47,784 nucleotides of DNA from contig WFQU01000114.1 in assembly GCA_015486845.1 (NCBI GenBank), positions 1-47,784 of the forward strand, written 5' to 3'. A program made the translations under genes and the position numbers. Below are positions 1 through 47,784 of this stretch, piece after piece. Below the pieces are notes generated by a model. The model saw only the letters and a list, made by a program, of their open reading frames with translations, made no database searches and was not told where the DNA came from. The DNA is from Anaerolineae bacterium. GTDB taxonomy: Bacteria; Chloroflexota; Anaerolineae; JAADDB01. Position 1 is the first letter of the stretch; every line of letters begins with the position of its first letter.

Positions 1-230
1 GCTATAACTGCGCAACCTGCCTGCGCAGGTTGCAAGCTAATCGCCGTAGGGCGATTTTGCAGATGTTGCCGTGACTTTTAGTCACTGGGCCGAATCGCTA
101 CCCCCGGCCCCCAATTCTGGGGGTGTGTTAATTCCCCCCCTCCAAGGTTTGGGGAATAGGGGGCGTTTTCAGCCGCTGTGGTGCGCCTGCCTGCGTGCCC
201 GCACAGGCAGGCCGCAGGCCCATGCCGATA
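1..230 (-). repeat. Composite intergenic element, copy C1 (left end cut off by the window)
   Basis: Reverse complement contains CACCACAGCGGCTGAAAACGCCCCCTATTCCCC, the palindrome GTGACTAAAAGTCAC, AATCGCC-CTAC-GGCGATT and GCAACCTGCGCAGGCAGGTTGC, all found again near 4.6, 16.0, 30.1, 32.0 and 34.7 kb. Confidence 0.85.
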
Positions 231-4554: not shown

Positions 4555-4935
4555 GGTAGAGCGTGACCGAGAAGTTCAACTTCTCGCAGAAGTTGAACTT
4601 CTCAAGAGTCGGCATGGGCCTAGGGGCTGCCTGTGAGGGCACGTAGACAGGCACATCACAGCGGATGAAAACGCCCTCTATCCCCCAACCTTGGGGGATT
4701 AACACACCCCCAGAATGGGGGGCCGGGGGGGCATAGATGGCCCAGTGACTAAAAGTCACGGCAACATCTGCAAAATCGCCCTACGGCGATTAGCAGGCAA
4801 CCTGCGCAGGCAGGTTGTGCAGTTATGGCAGCGATTTCTAATCGCCGGACAAGGCAGACTGCGTTGATCTGCGTTCTATTTTTCGAAGGGGAGGGTAGCC
4901 GAAGGCATTGCCTTCGGCTACCCTTCACAGAAGTT
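4555..4935 (+). repeat. Composite intergenic element, copy C2 (near full length)
   Basis: Successive modules: GAAGTTCAACTTC/GAAGTTGAACTTC hairpin (about 4569-4603), CGGCATGGG...CACAGCGGATGAAAACGCC, CCCCCAACCTTGGGGG (4682-4697), GTGACTAAAAGTCAC, AATCGCC/GGCGATT, CCTGCGCAGGCAGG, GCGATTTCTAATCGCC, GATCTGCGTTCTATTTT, and hairpin GGGTAGCCGAAGGCATTGCCTTCGGCTACCC (4893-4923). Confidence 0.85.
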
Positions 4936-4936
4936 T

Positions 4937-5036
4937 GTCATTGCGAGGCCCGACAGGGCCGTGGCAATCTCCCTCACTGGCGTTAGAGATTGCTTGACCA
5001 AAAAGAGGGTCACACTGTCGCTTCGCTCGCAATGAC
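4937..5036. repeat. Short MITE-like/REP-like element with perfect 11-bp terminal inverted repeats
   Basis: GTCATTGCGAG (4937-4947) and CTCGCAATGAC (5026-5036); a second copy with identical termini at 8681-8763. Confidence 0.8.
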
Positions 5037-5209
5037 ACGACTGATTTTAAGGCATTGCGTCAGCTATATTTAGGGGTGACTCCTCCCCTAAGCTGCGCTT
5101 AGCTTTTTCCCCTCCCCGATACGGGGAGGGGAAGGCTTGCCGCCCTTTTGGGCGGTAAGCCAGGAGAGAGGTCCTATTTTCAAAGAGGTCTTATTTTCAG
5201 AGAAGCACA

Positions 5210-8486: not shown

Positions 8487-8680
8487 CTCTTTATACCTCC
8501 TAACTCAAACCCAAACACCTAATCACTCTCTAAGCTGCTACTATTTAACCATCATAAGATGAAAAGGAAATAAAAGCAATATAAGAAACGCGTTATAAAC
8601 GCGACGGTTTCAATTTATTTCCGGGGTAAGCTACGCCCCCCCCCCCCTTAGTAATCGTCCAAGAATAAATTCCCCCAACT

Positions 8681-8763
8681 GTCATTGCGAGCGGGCGTAG
8701 CCCCGAAGCAATCTCTGCCTTGCAAACTTGGGGAGTGCTTCGGCCTATCAGCCTCGCAATGAC
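8681..8763. repeat. Second copy of the GTCATTGCGAG-bounded element
   Basis: Perfect termini GTCATTGCGAG / CTCGCAATGAC identical to the copy at 4937-5036; the interior is different. Confidence 0.8.
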
Positions 8764-8913
8764 ACAAACGGGAAGTCATTTTTTGACAGCCACTTAGGGC
8801 GGTAAAATTCCATGGAGAGGCTTGCGTTAAACGCATTTTCGGGATAGACTTGTAGTGTGTGTGGCAATATTTTTCGACAACGGTTGTCTATCGAACAAGG
8901 AGGTTTGACTCTT

Positions 8914-11789: not shown

Positions 11790-11915
11790 CGACTTGAGAA
11801 CTGCACTTTTGACAGCAGTTCCCATGCCACAAGGAGTAGAGGCTTTAGCCGGTTGCGAGCACAAGATATGGGCCGCCTAAAAGCTCGATTCCGGATTGGT
11901 CAAAAGTCCAATGAG

Positions 11916-14978: not shown

Positions 14979-15935
14979 TCAAGCAGCTTCCTCTTGGTTT
15001 TCTTCCTTACTTTCTTCATCGACGACTAAATGGAGGAATATTTCTTCCAAACTCATGCTGGCATAGTGCAATTCTAGCAGGTCCCAGTCGTTCTGAACAA
15101 TAGTACGGGCGATCAACGGCCGGGGGTCTTTCTCCGCTTCATAACGCAAGTCAAACTTCCCCGCTTTATCCATCGCTTCGACTTTGTTCACGCCGGGCAA
15201 GTTTTTGAGCGCAACAATCACTTTATCCACCGGCGGGGCATTGCGCAGCTCCAGAATGACCCGCTCGCCGCCGGAAAGAAGCACCGTCAAGCCTTGCGGT
15301 GTGTCCACAGCGACGATGCGCCCGTGGTTGATGATAATGATGCGAGTGGAAACTTCACTCACTTCCGGCAAAATGTGGCTGCTCAGGATGACCGTGTGCT
15401 CACCTTGCAAGCTACGAATGAGTTGACGCACGTCAATAATTTGTCGTGGGTCTAATCCGATGGTCGGTTCATCTAATATGATCACATCCGGATTATGCAA
15501 AAGCGCTTGGGCCAGACCGACCCGTTGCCGGTAGCCTTTGGATAGGGTGGCAATGCGATCGTCCGCCCGGTCGACGATATTCACTTTGTCCATCACTTCG
15601 CCAATCCGCTGCCGCCGATTTTCTACCCTTCGCAGGCTACCCATGTAATCTAAATAGCTGGCGACTGTCATCTCTTTGTACAATGGCACATTCTCCGGCA
15701 TGTAGCCAATATGCCGGCGGGCTTGCATGGACTGCTTGAAAACATCGTAGCCGGCAACTTTGGCCGCCCCCTCCGATGGCGGCATGTAGCCGCTCAAAAT
15801 GCGCATGGTCGTTGTTTTCCCGGCACCGTTAGGGCCCAAGAAGCCCAGAATTTCCCCTTTTCCCACATTGAAGGACAAATCCTGGACGGCCGCAAAGTCG
15901 CCATAATACTTTGTCAAGCCTTCGACTTCAATCAT
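14979..15935 (-). CDS. ABC transporter ATP-binding protein (GldA-like)
   Basis: GPNGAGKTTTMR (Walker A), LSKGYRQRVGLAQALLHNPDVIILDEPTIGLDP. Start at ATG 15935 (MIEVEGLTKYYGD) with AAGGGAGG upstream; the longer ORF start lies inside the repeat element. Confidence 0.93.
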   Translation of the reverse strand: MIEVEGLTKYYGDFAAVQDLSFNVGKGEILGFLGPNGAGKTTTMRILSGYMPPSEGAAKVAGYDVFKQSMQARRHIGYMPENVPLYKEMTVASYLDYMGSLRRVENRRQRIGEVMDKVNIVDRADDRIATLSKGYRQRVGLAQALLHNPDVIILDEPTIGLDPRQIIDVRQLIRSLQGEHTVILSSHILPEVSEVSTRIIIINHGRIVAVDTPQGLTVLLSGGERVILELRNAPPVDKVIVALKNLPGVNKVEAMDKAGKFDLRYEAEKDPRPLIARTIVQNDWDLLELHYASMSLEEIFLHLVVDEESKEENQEEAA

Positions 15936-15939
15936 ATTG

Positions 15940-16130
15940 TTCCTCCCTTGAAAATAAAATAGGACGCAGATCAACGCAGGCTGCGCACGCAGTCTGCCTT
16001 GTCCGGCGATTAGAAATCGCTGCTACAACTACGAAACCTGCCTGCGCAGGTTGCATGCTAATCGCCGTAGGACGATTTTGCTATTTTAGAAGTTCAACTT
16101 CTTGAAGAAGTTGAACTTCTATTCGACAGC
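15940..16130 (-). repeat. Composite intergenic element, copy C3; its 3' end abuts the ABC ATPase gene start
   Basis: Reverse complement: AGAAGTTCAACTTC hairpin, AATCGTCCTACGGCGATTAG, CAACCTGCGCAGGCAGG, GCGATTTCTAATCGCCGGACAAGGCAGACTGCG, TTGATCTGCGTCCTATTTTATTTTCAAGGGAGG. Confidence 0.82.
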
Positions 16131-18886: not shown

Positions 18887-20283
18887 CGAGACGGCGGCGG
18901 GCCGGGCGTGCGCGTCGGCGTGGCTGTTGGGAACGGCGTCATGGTAGCCGTCGGGCTCACCGTGGTGGTGGGCGTGCGGGCCAACATAGCAGTTGGCGTG
19001 ACAGCCGGAGGGGGCGGCACCGGCGTATTGGTACATGTGGCTGTGAGTGTCGGACGCGCGGTCGCGGTCGGCGGCACTGTCTTTGTTGGTGTCGAGGTCA
19101 ATGTGACGGGAGGCGTAGCCGTGGCCGGATGCGCCGGCGCCAGCGTGGGCGTAGCTGTCGGAGATGGCGTGTTAGTCGGCGTAGGCGTAGCGGTAAAAGT
19201 AGGCGTCGGCGTGGCTGTAGACGTAGCGGTGGCGGTCGGCTGCCCTTGTTGGCGCCACCAAAGCCCATCGTTCCCCACGGCATACAGCCGGTCCGGTTGC
19301 ACCGGATCAATGGCGATATACCGAGCCATAGCAGCCGAAAGCGATTCCGGTAAAGGCCGCCAGCGCGCGCCGCCGTTATCCGAAAACCATATCTGACCGT
19401 TGCTGCTGAGCAGGAAAAGATAACCCGCCAACACAGGGTGAACGACCAACTGCAGGGGTGCGCCGGGCGGCAACGCCCGACGGCGCACTGTTCCGTTAGT
19501 CGTCGAAACTTGCCAAAGAGATTCCGTTCCCAAGAGGTAAAGCGCCCCCCCTTTCTGTTCCGCTGTAACCATCTGAAAAACATGCCGGGACGGCACAGCA
19601 CAAAAACGACGCCAAGTCTGCGCTTTGGTTGTTCTCTGCCAGAGATCGCCTTTTTGATCCAGCAGCCACAACGTTTGCCGGCCCAACAGCAACTGGGCTG
19701 GCTTGACGCCAAGGGGCCAGGGGATGTTTTTTTGCAGATGGCCCTGTTCGTCGAAAGCCAAAATGCTCCCTTCTGTGGGCCAAAGGAGATTCGCATCACC
19801 GAACCAGCCAGCCAACAAGGGCCATAGCCTTGTGCCGGCAGGCAATTGTCGCAGGCGTTGCCATTGATCTTCCCCATCGAGGCGGTAAAGGGAGACATAT
19901 GATCCTTCACTGGCAACAACGGCCAGTTGACGGCCATCTTGGGGCGAAACGGCCACATCCAAAAGCTGCACGCGCCCCCATTGGTCACGCGGCAAGCCCT
20001 CTTGCAAAATCATCCAGGTCATGCCACCATCCACACTGCGTTGCAATGCGCCGTTCGCCGACCAAAGGTAAATGCGGGTCAAACCTTCCCATTGAGCGGT
20101 GAGGATACCGTTCCAATGCTCTCGTTTCCCTCCGATGATTTGCCAGGCGAAAGTGTGTCGGCCGGCCGCTATGGGGATGAGCAACAAAGGGGCAGTGAAA
20201 ATGGCAACGGCCAGCAACCAGGTCGCCAATCGCCGGCGGCGAGGCTGGCTAAGTCCCGTGATAGGAATGTGAAGCCCCTTCAT
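18883..20283 (-). CDS. BNR/YCF48-like beta-propeller protein with N-terminal TM helix and long Pro/Thr-rich C-terminal tail
   Basis: Repeats such as NGALQRSVDGGMTWMILQEGLP and NGQIWFSDNGGARWRPLPESL, then roughly 120 residues of T/P/A-rich tail. Confidence 0.78.
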   Translation of the reverse strand: MKGLHIPITGLSQPRRRRLATWLLAVAIFTAPLLLIPIAAGRHTFAWQIIGGKREHWNGILTAQWEGLTRIYLWSANGALQRSVDGGMTWMILQEGLPRDQWGRVQLLDVAVSPQDGRQLAVVASEGSYVSLYRLDGEDQWQRLRQLPAGTRLWPLLAGWFGDANLLWPTEGSILAFDEQGHLQKNIPWPLGVKPAQLLLGRQTLWLLDQKGDLWQRTTKAQTWRRFCAVPSRHVFQMVTAEQKGGALYLLGTESLWQVSTTNGTVRRRALPPGAPLQLVVHPVLAGYLFLLSSNGQIWFSDNGGARWRPLPESLSAAMARYIAIDPVQPDRLYAVGNDGLWWRQQGQPTATATSTATPTPTFTATPTPTNTPSPTATPTLAPAHPATATPPVTLTSTPTKTVPPTATARPTLTATCTNTPVPPPPAVTPTAMLARTPTTTVSPTATMTPFPTATPTRTPGPPPSR

Positions 20284-20290
20284 GATCAGC

Positions 20291-21757
20291 TCATCGTTCT
20301 GGCGTTGGCACCGGCGTTGACGTCGCCGTGGGCCGCGGCGTGGGTGTATGCGTGGGCGGCGGTGGCGGTGGCGGCGTGGCGGTCGGGGGGCGCGGTGTAA
20401 AAGTCGGCGTCGGCGTGGCGGTTGGCAGCGGCGTTGCTGTCAACGTGGCCGTGGCGGTGGACGTTGGCGTCGGCGTGGCCAACGCTTTCAGCAAAGCGTC
20501 GATCTGGTGTTGTGCTTTCCCCGTATCCGCCACTGGCAAAGCGGCCGCCTGGCGGTAGATTTTCAACGCCGTTTGATAATCCCCGGCGGACAGATAAGCT
20601 TGCCCTTGTTGCAACAACAGCGTGTATAGGTGTTCCGGCACCTGGCCATCGGCGTAAGTCGGTGCTCGTTGGTAGAGCAACTGCCAACGCGATAAAGCTG
20701 TATTGGTCTCATGGCGTTGTTCTGCTAAACGAGCATTCAGGTAAAGACTAACCAACTCTCGTTGTTGGGCAGCTTCTTCGTTCTTCGGATGAAGCGCCAA
20801 TGCCGTGCCAAAATATTGCAAAGCCAAACGCATAGTATCCGTATTGGCTTTGTCCCCCTGGGCAACAATCCGCTCACCTTCTTTCAAATAGCTATTGAAA
20901 AGGTATTCCGTGACCGCATCTTGCCGATAACTGGGCGCTGTTTTGCGCACCCAGGCAAAAGTAGAGATAGCCTCGGCCCATTTACCGTGATCGAAAGCGG
21001 TCACACCAGCATTGAAATGCTCCGCCAATTGTTTTTGTTGGTTGGCGTAAGTTAATAGTTCTTGGACGTCCTGGTAATTGGGATCAATAGCAACAATAGC
21101 GTTGAGTTCTGCCAGCGCCTGATCCCAATTTTTAGTTTTAATGGCAGCCTGGGCCTGGCGATAATGATTAGCCAGATTGCGCAGCCGTTTAGCGCGCGCT
21201 AAACCCACTTTGGCTGCGCTTTCGTTGGGCGCGAGGCGGGAAAGTTTTTCGAAAGTAGAGACAGCCGTATCGTAATCACCGGTAGCCAGTGCAGCCAAGC
21301 CTTGATCATATAACGACCGTTGTTCGTCTTGTAATTGACGATTGGTGAACCCAGGCAACCAACCCTGATGGGCCCCCCACAGAAAGAGCGCGATGGCCAG
21401 GAATAAGGGGATGAGCAACCAAAAATAGCCTCCGGCACGTTTTTTATGCTGCTCACCCGGCAAGGGCTTTATTTTTTCTGCGGCAATGGCAGCGGCTAAA
21501 CGTCCCGGCTCCACTTCTTCCAATTGGATAAACCAACGTACCTCGTCCAGCAGTGCGTCCACGCCGGCCCAGTTCGGATAATCCGCTTTCAGTTCACTAA
21601 AAGCGGCCAACGCCAAACGCCAATTGCGCTGGCGATAGGCCTGCATGCCACGTTGATAAAGCAGCTCGGCAGCAGAGACGGCTCCCCCGTCCGTAGTGGA
21701 GGTCTCTGTTGTCATCGTTTTTGAGGACTGAGAAGCTTGGGCTGGGCGTTCAGTCAT
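20291..21757 (-). CDS. TPR-repeat protein with one internal TM helix and Pro/Thr-rich C-terminal tail
   Basis: TPR-like helical repeats (LYDQGLAALATGDYDTAVSTFEKLSRLAPNESAAKVGLARA), TM segment YFWLLIPLFLAIALFLWGA, TPTPT tail. Confidence 0.8.
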   Translation of the reverse strand: MTERPAQASQSSKTMTTETSTTDGGAVSAAELLYQRGMQAYRQRNWRLALAAFSELKADYPNWAGVDALLDEVRWFIQLEEVEPGRLAAAIAAEKIKPLPGEQHKKRAGGYFWLLIPLFLAIALFLWGAHQGWLPGFTNRQLQDEQRSLYDQGLAALATGDYDTAVSTFEKLSRLAPNESAAKVGLARAKRLRNLANHYRQAQAAIKTKNWDQALAELNAIVAIDPNYQDVQELLTYANQQKQLAEHFNAGVTAFDHGKWAEAISTFAWVRKTAPSYRQDAVTEYLFNSYLKEGERIVAQGDKANTDTMRLALQYFGTALALHPKNEEAAQQRELVSLYLNARLAEQRHETNTALSRWQLLYQRAPTYADGQVPEHLYTLLLQQGQAYLSAGDYQTALKIYRQAAALPVADTGKAQHQIDALLKALATPTPTSTATATLTATPLPTATPTPTFTPRPPTATPPPPPPPTHTPTPRPTATSTPVPTPER

Positions 21758-30039: not shown

Positions 30040-30360
30040 TGACTAAAGCATCGGCACGTGGCTACAGGTGCACCACAGCGGACGAAAACGCCCCCTATCC
30101 TTCAACCTTGGGGGAGCAACACATCCCCAGAATTGGGGGCCGGGGGGCGTTTAGCTTGCAACCTGCGCAGGCAGGTTGCGCAGGTGTAGCAGCGATTTCT
30201 AATCGCCGGACAAGGCAGAGGGTAGCCGAGGGCATTGCCCTCGGCTACCCTCCAGAGAAGTTTATTTTCAAGGGAGTTATCATGAGCCTACGGCGCACCA
30301 CAGCGGATGAAAATTAAGATCAGCGTGCATCAGCGTTAATCTGCGTTCTATTTTCAGAGG
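30040..30360 (+). repeat. Composite intergenic element, copy C4, upstream of the ABC importer genes
   Basis: CACCACAGCGGACGAAAACGCCCCCTAT, CCTGCGCAGGCAGG, GCGATTTCTAATCGCCGGACAAGGCAGA, GGGTAGCCGAGGGCATTGCCCTCGGCTACCC (30220-30250), and a second CGCACCACAGCGGATGAAAA, ending ATCTGCGTTCTATTTTCAGAGGAG. Confidence 0.85.
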
Positions 30361-30378
30361 AGATCAACAGTTAAAGCC

Positions 30379-33452: not shown

Positions 33453-33967
33453 CAGGGAAAGCCATGATCTGGCCGGCAGTGGTTGCCGCGTTCCTGGCCG
33501 CGCACAACACGCTTACTTTGGCCACGGTGGATGAAAACGGCTTACCCGCGGCGGCGGCGCTTTTCTATGCCGAGGATAGTACGTTGAACCTCTACTTCCT
33601 CTCGGAAGCGGGCAGCGGCCATGCCCGGCATATCACCCAGCAGCCATGGGCGGCGGTCACCATCCAGGCCGATGGCCAGCATTGGCAGAATATCCAGGGC
33701 TTGCAACTCTGCGGCGTGGTGACGAAAGTCAGCGGCGCTGAACGTGTGACCGCCATGCGCATTTATGGCCGCAAGCACCCTTTTCTGCAACCACTTTTCC
33801 GGGGGGAAAAAGGGCCGGCCACTTTGCTGGCGGCGCTGCGCACGGCTACATTTTACCGGCTGCGTCCTTGCTGGCTGCGGCTGATCGATAATCGCCGCAC
33901 TTTCGGCTACAAAGAGAGTTGGCAGTTCCCGTGTGAGGAGACACCTTTAGATGACCACGAAGATTAG
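33449..33967 (+). CDS. Pyridoxamine 5'-phosphate oxidase-like FMN-binding split-barrel protein
   Basis: AHNTLTLATVDENGLPAAAALFYAEDSTLNLYFLSEAGSGHARHITQQPWAAVTIQADGQHW. Confidence 0.75.
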   Translation: MTGKAMIWPAVVAAFLAAHNTLTLATVDENGLPAAAALFYAEDSTLNLYFLSEAGSGHARHITQQPWAAVTIQADGQHWQNIQGLQLCGVVTKVSGAERVTAMRIYGRKHPFLQPLFRGEKGPATLLAALRTATFYRLRPCWLRLIDNRRTFGYKESWQFPCEETPLDDHED

Positions 33968-34718
33968 AACGGCAGCAGAAGCAGCCCGGTTTGGGCATCC
34001 CAGCTACGTTTGGCAGGCCGGCCAAGAACGCCGGCTGCAATTAGTGCGCCAATGGGTCAATCTTGAAAACGCCCACGTCCTGGTAGATGGCTGCGGCATT
34101 GGCATGTATATGCGGGCGTTCCACCGTTTCACGCCGCACGTTTACGGCATTGACATCGACCCCCCCATCGTGCAACAGGCTGCGCAAGCGCTGCCGCTAC
34201 TAAGCGTGGCCGCCGGAGAGCATTTACCCTTCCCCGACGACAGCTTCGACTTCGTTTTCAGCCATGAAGTGATAGAACACGTACAAAATGATCGTTGGAC
34301 TGCAGCCGAGATGGTACGGGTGCTGCGTCCCGGCGGACGCATCGTTATTTTCTGCCCTAACCGACTTTATCCCTTCGAGACCCACGGCCATTTCTGGCGG
34401 GGCAAATACCATTTTGGTAACACGCCTCTCATCAACTGGTTGCCCAACCCATTGCGAAACCGGTTGGCGCCGCACGTGCGGGTTTACACCGCATCCGGCC
34501 TGCGCCGGCTGTTCGCCGACCTGCCGGTGCGTGTCCTTCACCATGCTCAGGTTTTCCCGGGCTACGACAAAGTCGTTGCTCGACGCCCCCGCTTAGGCCG
34601 CTGGTTGCGGCAGACAACCTATTTTTTAGAAAGAACGCCATTGCGCTGCTTCGGAATCTCCCATTTCCTGGTTTTGGAGAAGAACCCCGCTGGACCTGCA
34701 GCGCACCACCGCGAATGA
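33951..34718 (+). CDS. Class I SAM-dependent methyltransferase
   Basis: HVLVDGCGIGMYMRAF; GIDIDPPIV; HLPFPDDSFDFVFSHEVIEHVQNDRWTAAEMVRVLRPGGRIVIFCPN. Confidence 0.85.
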   Translation: MTTKIRTAAEAARFGHPSYVWQAGQERRLQLVRQWVNLENAHVLVDGCGIGMYMRAFHRFTPHVYGIDIDPPIVQQAAQALPLLSVAAGEHLPFPDDSFDFVFSHEVIEHVQNDRWTAAEMVRVLRPGGRIVIFCPNRLYPFETHGHFWRGKYHFGNTPLINWLPNPLRNRLAPHVRVYTASGLRRLFADLPVRVLHHAQVFPGYDKVVARRPRLGRWLRQTTYFLERTPLRCFGISHFLVLEKNPAGPAAHHRE

Positions 34719-34990
34719 AAACGTCCCCTATTCCCCAATTTTGGGGGCCGGGAGGGGGGCGATTTCTCGGCGCCCAGCGACTAAAAGTCACGGCAATATC
34801 TGCAAAATCGCCCTACGGCGATTAGCTTGCAACCTGCGCAGGCAGGTTTCGCAGTTGTAGCAGCGATTTCTAATCGCCGGACAAGGTAGACTGCGTTGAT
34901 CAGCGTTCTATTTTTCGAAGGGGAGGGTAGCCCGAAGGCATTGCCTTTGGCTACCCTTCAGAGAAGTTTATTTTCAGGGGAGAAACAACA
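34690..34990 (+). repeat. Composite intergenic element, copy C6 (near full length), running into the ribosome-binding site of the next gene
   Basis: GCAGCGCACCACCGCGAATGAAAACGTCCCCTATTCCCC; GACTAAAAGTCACGGCAATATCTGCAAAATCGCCCTACGGCGATTAG; GCGATTTCTAATCGCCGGACAAGGTAGACTGCG; hairpin 34925-34956; ends TTATTTTCAGGGGAG directly before ATG 34992. Confidence 0.87.
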
Positions 34991-37789: not shown

Positions 37790-37990
37790 CATAATGAACC
37801 GGCTTACGGCAATTGAATCCGCGGCAGCCTTTGCTAAACTGACTTCTGTCAGTTCGATGTACCATCGGGGCAAGGTAACTTAGCAAGAGTTAGTACGAGT
37901 TTCAACTGCTGCATGGCAGACCGGTTTGGGTCATTATTTTTTCCTTCGCCAGCAAGAACCGGAATGATGTGGTCCGGTTAGAGGTGTTTC

Positions 37991-39181: not shown

Positions 39182-39504
39182 AGAGCCTTCAGCACGCAGA
39201 CCAGCCCAGAACAGCGGCTGAAAATCTCATTTCAAGGTTGGCGTTGGTAGGTTTGAGAAGCAATGCCACGGGAATAGGAATGGGGTTAGTTGGTGACGGC
39301 TAACAATCTCTTTTTGTTTTCTTTCTTGGGGGAGAAAAAGGAGGCGAGTTCAGCGTTGATCAGCGTTTTATGCTCCATGGAGCCAAATTTCAAACTATAA
39401 CGGCAATTTTCGCCAGATGCCCGTGGCAGCGTTTAAAATAGGCGCGTGGAGGAGAAACATAAAACTAAATAGAATCTCACAATCAATAAGGAGAAGAAAC
39501 CGCT

Positions 39505-41213: not shown

Positions 41214-43736
41214 TTACTTGTTAGGCTTATTCAGTCCTGCTTCTTTCACGCATTTCAACGCGTCTGCCTGCATCGCCTTGGCGGCGTCAGCCGGCGTTGC
41301 CGAATTGGACATCACCGCTTCCAGGTTCGGGCGCATAGCATCCCAGGCACAGCGCATTTGCGCTGCTGCCGGCATACCACGGCCATGGCTCAATTGCTCC
41401 ATCGAACCCTTCAAAATAGGATCTGTCTTGATCAGGTCGCTTTGAGCTGCTTCTTTGTTGGAAGGCAGTCGCTTGAACTTCTTCAGCCACTGCAACTGCA
41501 CATCTTTAGACGTCATGAAGACGACAAACTGCTTGGCCGCTAACATTTTATCCGCGTTGCCTTTCAGCCCGGTGGAAAACATCCAGTACTTACCGGAGGT
41601 CATCGGCGTCGGCCAAAGTTTAGTGGAGGTCACCTCTGGAATTGGTGCCACACCTAGCTTGTCGCCCAAAGCTTTAGCATAACCGCCCAATGACCAGTCA
41701 CCGTTAATGATCATGGCCGCTTTGCCTTCTTTGAACATCGTATCAGCGGTGTTGTAATCCGCTTCCGGCGGGATCACCTTGTCCTTAAATTTCAGGTCCT
41801 GTACGAACTGCAACGCACTGACCATCGCCTTACTATCCAGCGTTGGCATATCATCACTGCCCAAAGGCCAACCACCAAAACCGCCTAACCACGGCGCCAG
41901 CCAAAACGGTTCGTTTTCGTTGTAAACGAAGCCCCAGGTGTCGCCTTTTTTCAACGCTTTGGCCATTTTAATCAGTTCATCGGTATTCTTTGGCGGCGTT
42001 TTCACCATATCTTTGTTATAGAGCAACATCAGATGGTTACCATAATTATCTGGAACGCCCCAAATCTTACCCTTTACCTTGGTCGGTTCCAATGCGCCGG
42101 GGAAGAATTGCCCCAAGAAACCAGTGCTGAACACATCCTCCATGGGCATGATGATCTTCAGTTCGCTGAACGGTCCAGCGAAATCGTTAGGTACACGAAC
42201 TAAATCCGGAGCTGAGTTAGCCAAACTAGCAGTCTGGAATTGATCTCGCAATTCTTCATTGCCGTAGTGCGTGCGTTCAATGCTAATCTTCGGGTGTTTC
42301 TTTTGGAATTGAGCGATCAGGTCATCCATAAACGCTTCCACATCGTCCGCTTCCTGATCCCAAACCGTCAGTTTCACTGGCTTGCTCAAAGAAACGCCTA
42401 AGCCTGCCTCTTCGACGCATTTCATCGCGTCGTCCTGCATCGCCTTAGCGGCTGCGGCCGGCGTCTCCGAATTAGACATCACTGCTTCCAGGTTCGGGCG
42501 CATGGCGTCCCAGGCACAACGCATTTGCGGTGCTGCCGGCATGCCTCGACCATGGCTCAACTGCTCCATGGAACCTTTCAAAACGGGGTCTGTCTTGATC
42601 AACTCGCTCTGAGCAGCTTCTTTGTTGGAAGGCAGTCGTTTGAACTTCTTTAGCCACTGCAGCTGCACGTCCTTGGACGTCATGTAAGAAACGAGCAACT
42701 TTGCCGCGGCCAGTTTATCGGCATTCCCGTTCAGCCCGGTGGAGAACATCCAGTATTTGCCAGAAGTCATCGGCGACGGCCAGAGCCCCGTGGAGGACAC
42801 CTTCGGAATGGGCGCCACGCCCAACTTGTCGCCTAACGCCTTAGCATAACCACCCAACGACCAGTCACCATTGATAATCATGGCGGCTTTGCCTTCTTTG
42901 AACATCGTATCAGCGGTGTTGTAATCTGCTTCCGGCGGAATAACCTTATCCTTGAATTTCAGATCCTGCACGAACTGCAATGCTTTGGCCATGGCATCAG
43001 TGCCCAAGGTCGGCATGTCTGTGGCATCATTCAAAGGCCAACCACCAAAGCCACCCAGCCAAGGTGCCAGCCAGAACGGCTCATTCTCGTTATAAACGAA
43101 GCCCCAGGTGTCGCCTTTTTTCAACGCTTTGGCCATTTTGATCAGTTCGTCGGTGTCCTTCGGCGGCGTTTTCACCATATCTTTGTTGTAAAGCAACATA
43201 AGGTGGTTGCCGTAATTATCCGGCACGCCCCACAAGGTGCCTTTGACCTGAGCCGGGCTAAGAGCGCCAGGGAAGAACGCATTCAAAAAGGCCTGATCGT
43301 ACACCTTAGTCGCCGGAATCACAATCTGTAATTCGCTGAACGGCCCGGCGAAATCGTTGGGCACCCGAACCAGATCCGGCGCTTGACCGGCCAGGCTCGC
43401 GGTCTGGAACTGATCCCGCAATTCTTCATTGCCATAATGTGTACGTTCAATGGTAATATTGGGATGATCCTTCTGGAACTGAGCCAGCAAGTCATCCATG
43501 AAAGCTTCCACGTCATCCGCTTCTTGATCCCAAACCGTCAGCTTCACCGGTTTCGTCACCGCCGCGGCTTTCGTCGGGGCTGGTTTCTCTGCCGCCTTCG
43601 TCGGGGCAGCCGCTTTCGTCGCTACCGGGGCTTTCGTCGGTGCCGTCGTGGGCGTTGCCTTCTGTCCGCACGCCGATAGAAGCATGCTGAACACCAACAC
43701 CAAAGTAATTAACATAAACCACTTCTTGTTACGCAT
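41214..43736 (-). CDS. Sugar ABC transporter substrate-binding lipoprotein with two tandem full-length binding domains
   Basis: Lipobox-like LLSACG, Pro/Thr/Ala/Lys linker, then KPVKLTVWDQEADDVEAFMDDL... occurring twice (starts 43553 and 42383, 1170 bp apart, in frame). Start at ATG 43736 after GGAGGGAG. Confidence 0.92.
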   Translation of the reverse strand: MRNKKWFMLITLVLVFSMLLSACGQKATPTTAPTKAPVATKAAAPTKAAEKPAPTKAAAVTKPVKLTVWDQEADDVEAFMDDLLAQFQKDHPNITIERTHYGNEELRDQFQTASLAGQAPDLVRVPNDFAGPFSELQIVIPATKVYDQAFLNAFFPGALSPAQVKGTLWGVPDNYGNHLMLLYNKDMVKTPPKDTDELIKMAKALKKGDTWGFVYNENEPFWLAPWLGGFGGWPLNDATDMPTLGTDAMAKALQFVQDLKFKDKVIPPEADYNTADTMFKEGKAAMIINGDWSLGGYAKALGDKLGVAPIPKVSSTGLWPSPMTSGKYWMFSTGLNGNADKLAAAKLLVSYMTSKDVQLQWLKKFKRLPSNKEAAQSELIKTDPVLKGSMEQLSHGRGMPAAPQMRCAWDAMRPNLEAVMSNSETPAAAAKAMQDDAMKCVEEAGLGVSLSKPVKLTVWDQEADDVEAFMDDLIAQFQKKHPKISIERTHYGNEELRDQFQTASLANSAPDLVRVPNDFAGPFSELKIIMPMEDVFSTGFLGQFFPGALEPTKVKGKIWGVPDNYGNHLMLLYNKDMVKTPPKNTDELIKMAKALKKGDTWGFVYNENEPFWLAPWLGGFGGWPLGSDDMPTLDSKAMVSALQFVQDLKFKDKVIPPEADYNTADTMFKEGKAAMIINGDWSLGGYAKALGDKLGVAPIPEVTSTKLWPTPMTSGKYWMFSTGLKGNADKMLAAKQFVVFMTSKDVQLQWLKKFKRLPSNKEAAQSDLIKTDPILKGSMEQLSHGRGMPAAAQMRCAWDAMRPNLEAVMSNSATPADAAKAMQADALKCVKEAGLNKPNK

Positions 43737-47579: not shown

Positions 47580-47784
47580 TCGGAGGAGTCGGCATGGGTC
47601 TGCAGCGCACCACAGCGGATGAAAACGAAGCGGCTGGTGTCAAGCCTTTAGGTGGGTTGGTGGGTCTACCACCGGCTAAAGCTTCGATTCCGGTACGGTG
47701 GCGGGGTACGTCAAGGTTGCGTCCGCTGCCAAAAGACTGCTCAACACTAGCCCCCTTTCAGGGGGGGTCTTGGTAACGTAGCAC
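47580..47784 (+). repeat. Composite element start module (copy C8) followed by E7 copy B (47690-47784), truncated by the window end
   Basis: GAGTCGGCATGGGTCTGCAGCGCACCACAGCGGATGAAAACG; then GCGGGGTACGTCAAGGTTGCGTCCGCTGCCAAAAGACTGCTCAACACTAGCCCCCTTTCAGGGGG, matching the 16.2 kb copy. Confidence 0.78.

Follow-up and report, generated by a model that had tools for sequence, protein, structure and literature searches.

Several kinds of short repeated element are known from the intergenic DNA of bacteria. Repeats of the GTAG type, which belong to the REP/BIME literature, have been reported in Chloroflexi (PMC2817692, PMC6006769, PMC8266576, PMC3733652). The ends of IS200/IS605 elements comprise a target tetranucleotide in the left flank, a subterminal hairpin and a final tetranucleotide within the right end, and these elements insert without duplicating their target (PMC6006769). 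Some of the BOX elements of Streptococcus pneumoniae influence the expression of downstream genes (PMC3049150). The TAACTGA repeats of Beggiatoaceae are found directly upstream of start codons, mostly in the sense orientation, with a patchy distribution over distant taxa (PMC4679880).

Here we describe repeat arrays of an Anaerolineae bacterium, starting from one complete contig of 47,784 nt (contig C114, WFQU01000114.1), which we call the window. A sequence-only reading of the window had reported a dispersed family of multi-hairpin elements. The feature that unifies these arrays is not the hairpins but a right end carrying a Shine-Dalgarno (SD) motif, which is common to otherwise unrelated modules.

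Results

Repeat arrays in the window

All of the eight full or partial copies reported earlier are present essentially where they had been placed (Table 1), and several pairs of them are 90-96% identical across 60-160 bp. Because of this identity, and because a query taken from copy C2 (4640-4935) scored 75 full or partial matches across the source genome (471 first-look candidates), the likeness of the copies is not a matter of chance. The limits of some copies had to be redrawn: C2 continues to the right, through H and I modules and then TATTTTCAGAGAAG, as far as ~5205, the H-like match of C1 and both limits of C3 are as given in Table 1, and C8 meets the contig end. Three divergent or solo modules, on the minus strand, had been missed (last rows of Table 1).

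Table 1. Repeat features of the window (LE, left end; RE, right end; letters designate modules)
Feature	Position	Strand	Content	Basis
C1	1-298	-	array cut by contig end; H-like match 222-298, B/C hairpins, D 1-88	HMM matches
C1, left end	167-210	-	LE with extra hairpin (A2)	HMM matches
C2, start	4570-5205 (whole copy)	+	K hairpins 4570-4604, LE (A2) ~4613-4670, B/C hairpins to 4734	
C2, middle		+	D 4742-4850, N/F tail with RE-like 4877-4893, G hairpin 4890-4924	
C2, right part		+	H 4934-5072, I 5078-5185, RE 5192-5205	
C3	15943-16256	-	L, K, D, N modules; terminal RE 15943-15956	
C4, first part	30065-30362 (whole copy)	+	LE remnant, B/C, truncated D, G hairpin, RE 30263-30276	
C4, A-M unit	30277-30362	+	LE 30281-30313, M cargo, RE 30349-30362; called gene start 28 nt further	
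C5	31999-32112	+	solo D block without LE or RE	
C6, left	34691-34982 (whole copy)	+	degenerate LE 34701-34721, D 34774-34882	
C6, right		+	N/F tail with RE-like 34909-34925, G hairpin 34922-34957, terminal RE 34969-34982	
C7	39231-39375	+	degenerate O module (39231-39303) and M-like tail	
C8	47586-47784	+	LE 47593-47625, J 47634-47696, beginning of L; contig end cuts array	
Solo H-like	8666-8764	-	GTCATTGCGAGG palindrome	
Solo J hairpin	11833-11894	-	within inverted-repeat element (GGACTTTTGAC...GTCAAAAG)	
D-like	37807-37910	-	very diverged match (31 bits)	

The terminal RE of C3 is separated by 7 nt from the ATG of an ABC-transporter ATPase gene (14979-15935, -), and that of C6 by 9 nt from the ATG of a cobalamin adenosyltransferase gene. 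Both genes flanking C2 run antisense to it, and the gene downstream of C5, which encodes a ubiE-like methyltransferase, has an SD of its own. The absence of a block from C4 would be consistent with deletion between short GGCGATT/GGCGTTT-like repeats. Upstream of C6, a methyltransferase ORF (33951-34718, +) takes its stop codon from the left-end module, and the insertion of C6 seems to have altered the C-terminus of the protein.

No Rfam family matched the window at gathering thresholds, and no transposase was found among 30 window ORFs scanned with Pfam, which supports the earlier statement that the window contains none. Two other repetitive features of the window lie in coding sequence: a single ORF at 41214-43736 (-) with two tandem solute-binding-protein domains that stem from a ~1.17-kb internal duplication (79-84% identical), and low-complexity GGCGTNGGCGTGGC-type repeats of the minus strand at 18900-20480.

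Unrelated modules meet at one type of junction

The source genome (G000) is a MAG of 3.28 Mb in 182 contigs. Array and placement statistics were collected over 718 kb of it, in stretches mostly from contigs with a match, and patterns were counted genome-wide; gene calls were home-made, and the genomes compared were mostly drafts. The sequence-only reading had allowed that a wider search might reveal only the few copies of the window, or that these would match an Rfam family; neither was the case. Profile HMMs built from 17 module seeds defined by eye (the short B seed yielded no model) gave 563 non-overlapping module matches forming 161 arrays in the 718 kb, and only 5 of the 563 lay mostly within called genes. 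Many contigs of the source genome, including that of the window, end inside modules.

The fixed order of modules that had been claimed is kept only in A-B-C-D-F-G, the most frequent composite; across the genome, modules are joined combinatorially at a single junction type, and L-K-N, P-H-I, A-J-L-K and A-M are further recurring part-orders. The mosaic assembly suggested from the window is correct and was understated; unrelated modules mix freely at a common SD-bearing right end. Modules N, G, M, I, P, C, H and J all terminate in the same TATTTTCARRGGAG, which is followed, in many combinations, by a gene start or by A, H, N, C, Q or G. With respect to the next gene, 62 of 82 arrays were sense and 20 antisense; for tandem gene pairs, the numbers were 37 and 11.

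Conventional mobile elements supply part of the cargo. Solo D and M/N-like blocks reside within elements of ~80-180 bp with inverted ends GTRACTRCTCAGCC, and other inverted-repeat elements enclose H- and J-like hairpins; the arrays are a mixture of MITE interiors and SD-punctuated units. The GTRACTRCTCAGCC-ended elements, with D-like or M/N-like interiors, form a separate short-element family on contigs C17, C21, C108, C165, C178 and C180 of the source genome. An apparent transposon between distant GTRACTRCTCAGCC ends on contig C56 was rejected, as it resolves into two short, unconnected elements on either side of ordinary genes. Solo H GTCATTGCGAGG palindromes (contigs C162, C98, C175 and C180) are embedded in two or more different elements, each with flanking repeats of its own, AGTTACGCAGTT...AACTGCGTAAGT in one and GTGGCTGTCTAAAAAC... 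in another. RNA covariation in the D block was unsupported (9 alifold pairs only, a gappy alignment and no double changes).

The right end often lies before start codons

The punctuation sequence that joins modules, CTATTTTCARRGGAG, has an SD motif at its 3' end, and the junction between modules is a predicted ribosome-binding site. There are 119 exact copies in the source genome, versus none of the reversed control. What follows an RE is another module or a host start codon, often 4-13 nt away. The 718 kb contained 145 punctuation-like sites, against 18 altogether for the reversed pattern; 32 of the 145 lay 2-15 nt before a same-strand start, and 31 of these 32 were attached to a module, corresponding to 31 of the 481 called genes. 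A same-strand start was located 4-13 nt past the end of 25 of the 35 LE-RE chains.

The gene caller slightly favors starts preceded by an SD, and the placement was therefore retested on bare ORFs of at least 80 codons. An ATG or GTG start was present at 4-10 nt for 19 of 45 exact RE sites, compared with 7 of 135 windows further downstream and none of 45 mirror-side windows. Any intergenic GGAG has a start at the same spacing in 250 of 1212 cases (21%), which indicates that part of the gene-start enrichment of the RE is generic SD-like behavior; the enrichment of the RE over any SD-like motif in the source genome is about twofold.

The left end and the complete unit

The commonest left end reads GGAG-N5-CATG-hairpin-RATGAAAAT. 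In the window, the A-M unit directly follows the RE of the first part of C4 (Table 1). This unit occurs at 19 loci of the source genome with 0-5 mismatches over 68 nt, preceded by the right ends of many different modules or by Q (...GGTAG) and followed by a gene or a module. Three of its copies are identical across 90 bp, and the best copy from another genome, Anaerolineae bacterium S014_12 (G003), is 98% identical. The stems of 21 LEs from 13 genomes, which are not independent of one another, were modestly more stable than shuffled sequences (mean z -0.77, combined -3.5).

Terminal inverted repeats were not found at the LE and RE termini of the unit. TGAAAAT of the LE and ATTTTCA of the RE are the sole inverted-repeat pair, internal on the left, and inspection of LE variants revealed no compensatory change between the two. 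A conserved upstream peptide, MSLRHTTADEN, was considered and rejected, since the RE is found in all three frames and some LEs have no ATG. The upstream ORF that begins in the LE often stops ahead of the RE; in some units, it ends near the main start or overlaps it.

Units in other genomes and in a viral contig

The LE core was scanned through the GTDB collection; among the matches listed, it also occurs in S014_12, a member of the same family as the source genome but of a different genus, and in Chloroflexi bacterium G576. In the S014_12 loci compared, no protein was common to the source sample at the level of at least 95%. G576 has 23 copies of the LE core at one mismatch or fewer; its units have identical ends and other cargo (GGAGTGTCAAACTATAGTTTGACACTCC, TTCGCCATTCGCACATTCGC, CGGCGGTCGGCGGTC and more), and by reading, ~12 of 15 are directly ahead of a gene start.

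Across the class, 199 genomes were examined for the CTATTTTCARRGGAG pattern; 21 contain it, and the reversed control matched 4 times over all 199. The source genome is followed by S014_12 with 21 copies, G128 and G202 with 13 each, G165 with 12 and G018 with 6, fewer being present elsewhere; the lone copies in some of the 21 genomes may be chance matches. Looser left ends, GGAG-N5..8-(CATG)-hairpin-RATGAAAAT with other stems (for example GAGCCCAGGCTC, CTGGTGCGCCAG, GAGCGTGCGCTC and GTCCCTGGCGGGAC), are found in further Anaerolineae families, LEs beyond the two nearest genomes having been recognized by eye. In 19 further genomes, an ORF start lay 4-11 nt past the RE in 45 of 75 cases, as against 3 of 150 and 3 of 64 control windows. 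The units form a large group that is patchily spread over Anaerolineae, most members of the source genome's family and class being without them.

A unit with an exact LE core was also seen at a gene start in an IMG/VR contig (IMGVR_UViG_3300043543_000122, ~350-530, -). Its layout is AAGGAG-TTGCCC-ATG-AACCGGTGGTT-CACCACAGCGGATGAAAAT...ATTTTCACTGGAGG-AAAC-ATG, with a diverged right end, and its upstream ORF of 29 codons overlaps the following start codon as ATGA. An exact 18-mer match alone could be due to chance in such a large collection, but the combination of features makes the viral unit credible, and the contig is a possible vehicle for the transfer of units. A search of viral contigs for an RE followed by ATG gave 38 stretches, none with a convincing LE and nothing beyond chance, and a plasmid search with the A-M unit gave no match.

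Insertion sites and a candidate enzyme

Units that open an array have a purine-rich, SD-like left flank. The hexamers to the left and right of a unit agreed at 3.51 of 6 positions versus 3.61 for permuted pairs (p=0.84, in a test of limited power). As the two hexamers of a unit show no similarity beyond that of permuted pairs, the GGAG at the right looks element-borne and not like a target duplication. The sequence-only reading had proposed a comparison with empty orthologous sites, and one pair was informative. In this same-genus pair, G055 has AGGAG-ATGACGCG-ATG behind the right end of a unit, and G147 has the same AGGAG-ATGACGCG-ATG behind ACGGGAAAAA; the end of the upstream gene can be aligned in both, G147 having a different insert upstream of the SD. 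Two further pairs were uninformative, same-genus relatives hold other repeats in these regions, and G043, considered as an empty-site partner of G159, had no alignable locus. From the junctions within arrays and this one external pair, we infer an insertion model in which a unit would enter 3' of the native SD and its RE would replace that SD.

The earlier distinction from a simple MITE stands for the LE-RE unit, the termini of which are not inverted and for which no duplication was detected, so that a simple element with terminal inverted repeats and target-site duplication was rejected as a description of it; the distinction does not extend to some of the solo modules, which do have inverted ends.

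In the family of the source genome, Y1 transposase domains are frequently encountered, also in genomes that lack units. The source genome itself has a REP-associated Y1 gene (contig C99, 6781-7116, -), truncated where the contig ends, and a broken Y1 copy (contig C73, 8267-8521, -). The former scored 70.5 bits against NF047646 (curated cut-off 80). Hairpins of the AGAAGTTSAACTTCT type (K) are near both genes, with no LE or RE; the AGAAGTTSAACTTCT palindrome has 87 exact copies in the DNA examined. At the loci examined, there was no transposase between or beside LE and RE.

Discussion

The architecture and placement of the units are evident from their ends, their junctions, their differing cargo, the enrichment at gene starts and the patchy spread. 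The interpretation that we favor, and consider reasonably probable, is that the arrays are non-autonomous, modular and probably mobile cassettes that park between an SD and a start codon with a replacement SD. A complete unit would consist of an LE (~5 nt, usually CATG, a short hairpin and the tail RATGAAAAT), variable hairpin cargo typical of the host, and the RE; its left boundary would lie immediately 3' of an SD-like GGAG rich in purines, and it would close with a GGAG of its own. When it lands between SD and start, the old spacer and start codon would be kept behind the replacement SD, so that translation of the gene would survive the insertion. Every RE would double as a fresh landing site, which could explain why units pile up head-to-tail in so many orders. 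The near-identical units at many loci, and the 98% identical unit in another genus, suggest that units have moved recently. Counting against the proposal are the antisense arrays (20 of 82) and the fact that a single external empty-site pair was informative, its relative having a different insert upstream of the SD. So do the 21% of generic intergenic GGAG motifs that stand before an ORF start, the lack of a transposase at the loci examined, the modest stability of the LE stems, and the D-block hairpins, in which no compensatory change was seen. We are more tentative, and stop a little short of endorsement, about the wider claim that this is a class-wide mobile cassette family with the SD as insertion target and an SD end of its own, which would build arrays of species-specific cargo, leave the gene translatable and perhaps be carried by viruses.

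One could envision instead that ordinary MITE and REP repeats have gathered between genes, that their tails were homogenized by recombination or gene conversion, and that placement at gene starts reflects survivorship with no targeting. The solo D and M/N-like blocks inside conventional inverted-repeat elements, the module losses by which arrays differ and which fit short-repeat deletion, the antisense arrays and the other repeats that fill these regions in same-genus relatives all agree with such accumulation. It seems to us unlikely, although it deserves serious attention, because the same 15-mer RE is present in several families with unrelated cargo, which recombination within a genome does not explain, and because tolerance alone would give no preference for gene starts over other neutral intergenic sites. 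Another possibility is that a conserved cis-acting leader, composed of an upstream start, a hairpin and an SD, tunes translation of the downstream gene and has spread with genes, the middle repeats being passengers. Such a leader would fit the SD and ATG that the LE usually provides, the canonical spacing of the SD in the RE and the upstream ORFs that end near or overlap the main start. We regard it as improbable: there is no common frame or peptide, the upstream ORF often terminates before the RE, the genes concerned appear unrelated, the units recur in tandem and in nearly identical form at many loci, and the greater part of the family and class is without them. That chimeric contigs were joined at repeats by assembly or binning could be suspected from the contigs that end within modules, but the same architecture is present in assemblies that were submitted separately (S014_12, G576 and others), mostly inside contigs and with distinct flanks, and the S014_12 loci compared share no such closely matching protein with the source sample; we give an artefact hardly any credence.

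If units are mobile cassettes as proposed, their mobilization in trans is plausible. As to the enzyme, our first guess would be an HUH/Y1 transposase that acts on single strands, of the IS200/IS605-REP type, although this mechanism, taken alone, is doubtful. The guess derives from the resemblance of the ends to a tetranucleotide-hairpin geometry, from the lack of a detected duplication and from the REP-associated Y1 protein encoded by the genome.

Should the cassette proposal be correct, selfish DNA would live between the ribosome-binding site and the start codon, among the most constrained places of a bacterial genome, by carrying a ribosome-binding site of its own, and such cassettes may be able to accumulate before genes without switching them off. 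The SD would be replaceable for a share of the genes (31 of 481 in our sample), and the proposal would help account for the assembly breaks in these genomes and for their long leaders filled with repeats. The units would also provide a specific signature that can be searched for and tested in other phyla.

Comparison with known systems

A text search of openly licensed papers for the RE sequence and for intergenic repeat families of Chloroflexi or Anaerolineae returned nothing relevant. With REP/BIME repeats and TnpA_REP (RAYT) (PMC2817692, PMC6006769, PMC8266576, PMC3733652), the arrays share high-copy intergenic hairpins, mosaic arrays and a patchy spread, as well as a GGAG or GTAG tetranucleotide near a hairpin and a REP-associated Y1 protein in the source genome. 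They differ in that the units are head-to-tail, with two different ends, variable cargo and the SD of the RE at start codons, and no transposase gene linked to units, as would be expected of REP/RAYT, was found at the loci examined. REP has a GTAG-type tetranucleotide at the 5' foot of the hairpin; GGAG is at the hairpin foot in the G module and several nucleotides before the stem in the LE. REP cleavage at CT beside GTAG-footed stems (PMC8266576) has no direct match in the layout of LE and RE. This layout resembles the end geometry of IS200/IS605 elements (PMC6006769), unlike which the units were found to contain no TnpA gene and have unrelated hairpins as cargo.

The TAACTGA repeats (PMC4679880) share with the units the placement at start codons, the sense bias and the patchy spread; they consist of a heptamer in simple tandem copies, have little SD character and overlap the place where an SD would be expected, whereas the units described here are modular hairpin units that would bring an SD. 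Prokaryotic MITEs with terminal inverted repeats and target-site duplications (PMC10969869) are likewise short, non-coding, non-autonomous and multi-copy, and some solo modules here have inverted ends, but the LE-RE unit lacks terminal inverted repeats, and no duplication of its target was detected; the MITE review (PMC10969869) does not mention ribosome-binding sites. BOX elements (PMC3049150), compared by their architecture, also combine constant outer modules with variable middle modules at a similar size; an SD-carrying end is not known to be reported for them, and the units described here have many unrelated, genome-specific middle hairpins. None of the known systems tested matches the arrays fully, and the closest are the mosaics of BIME/REP, BOX and MITE elements.
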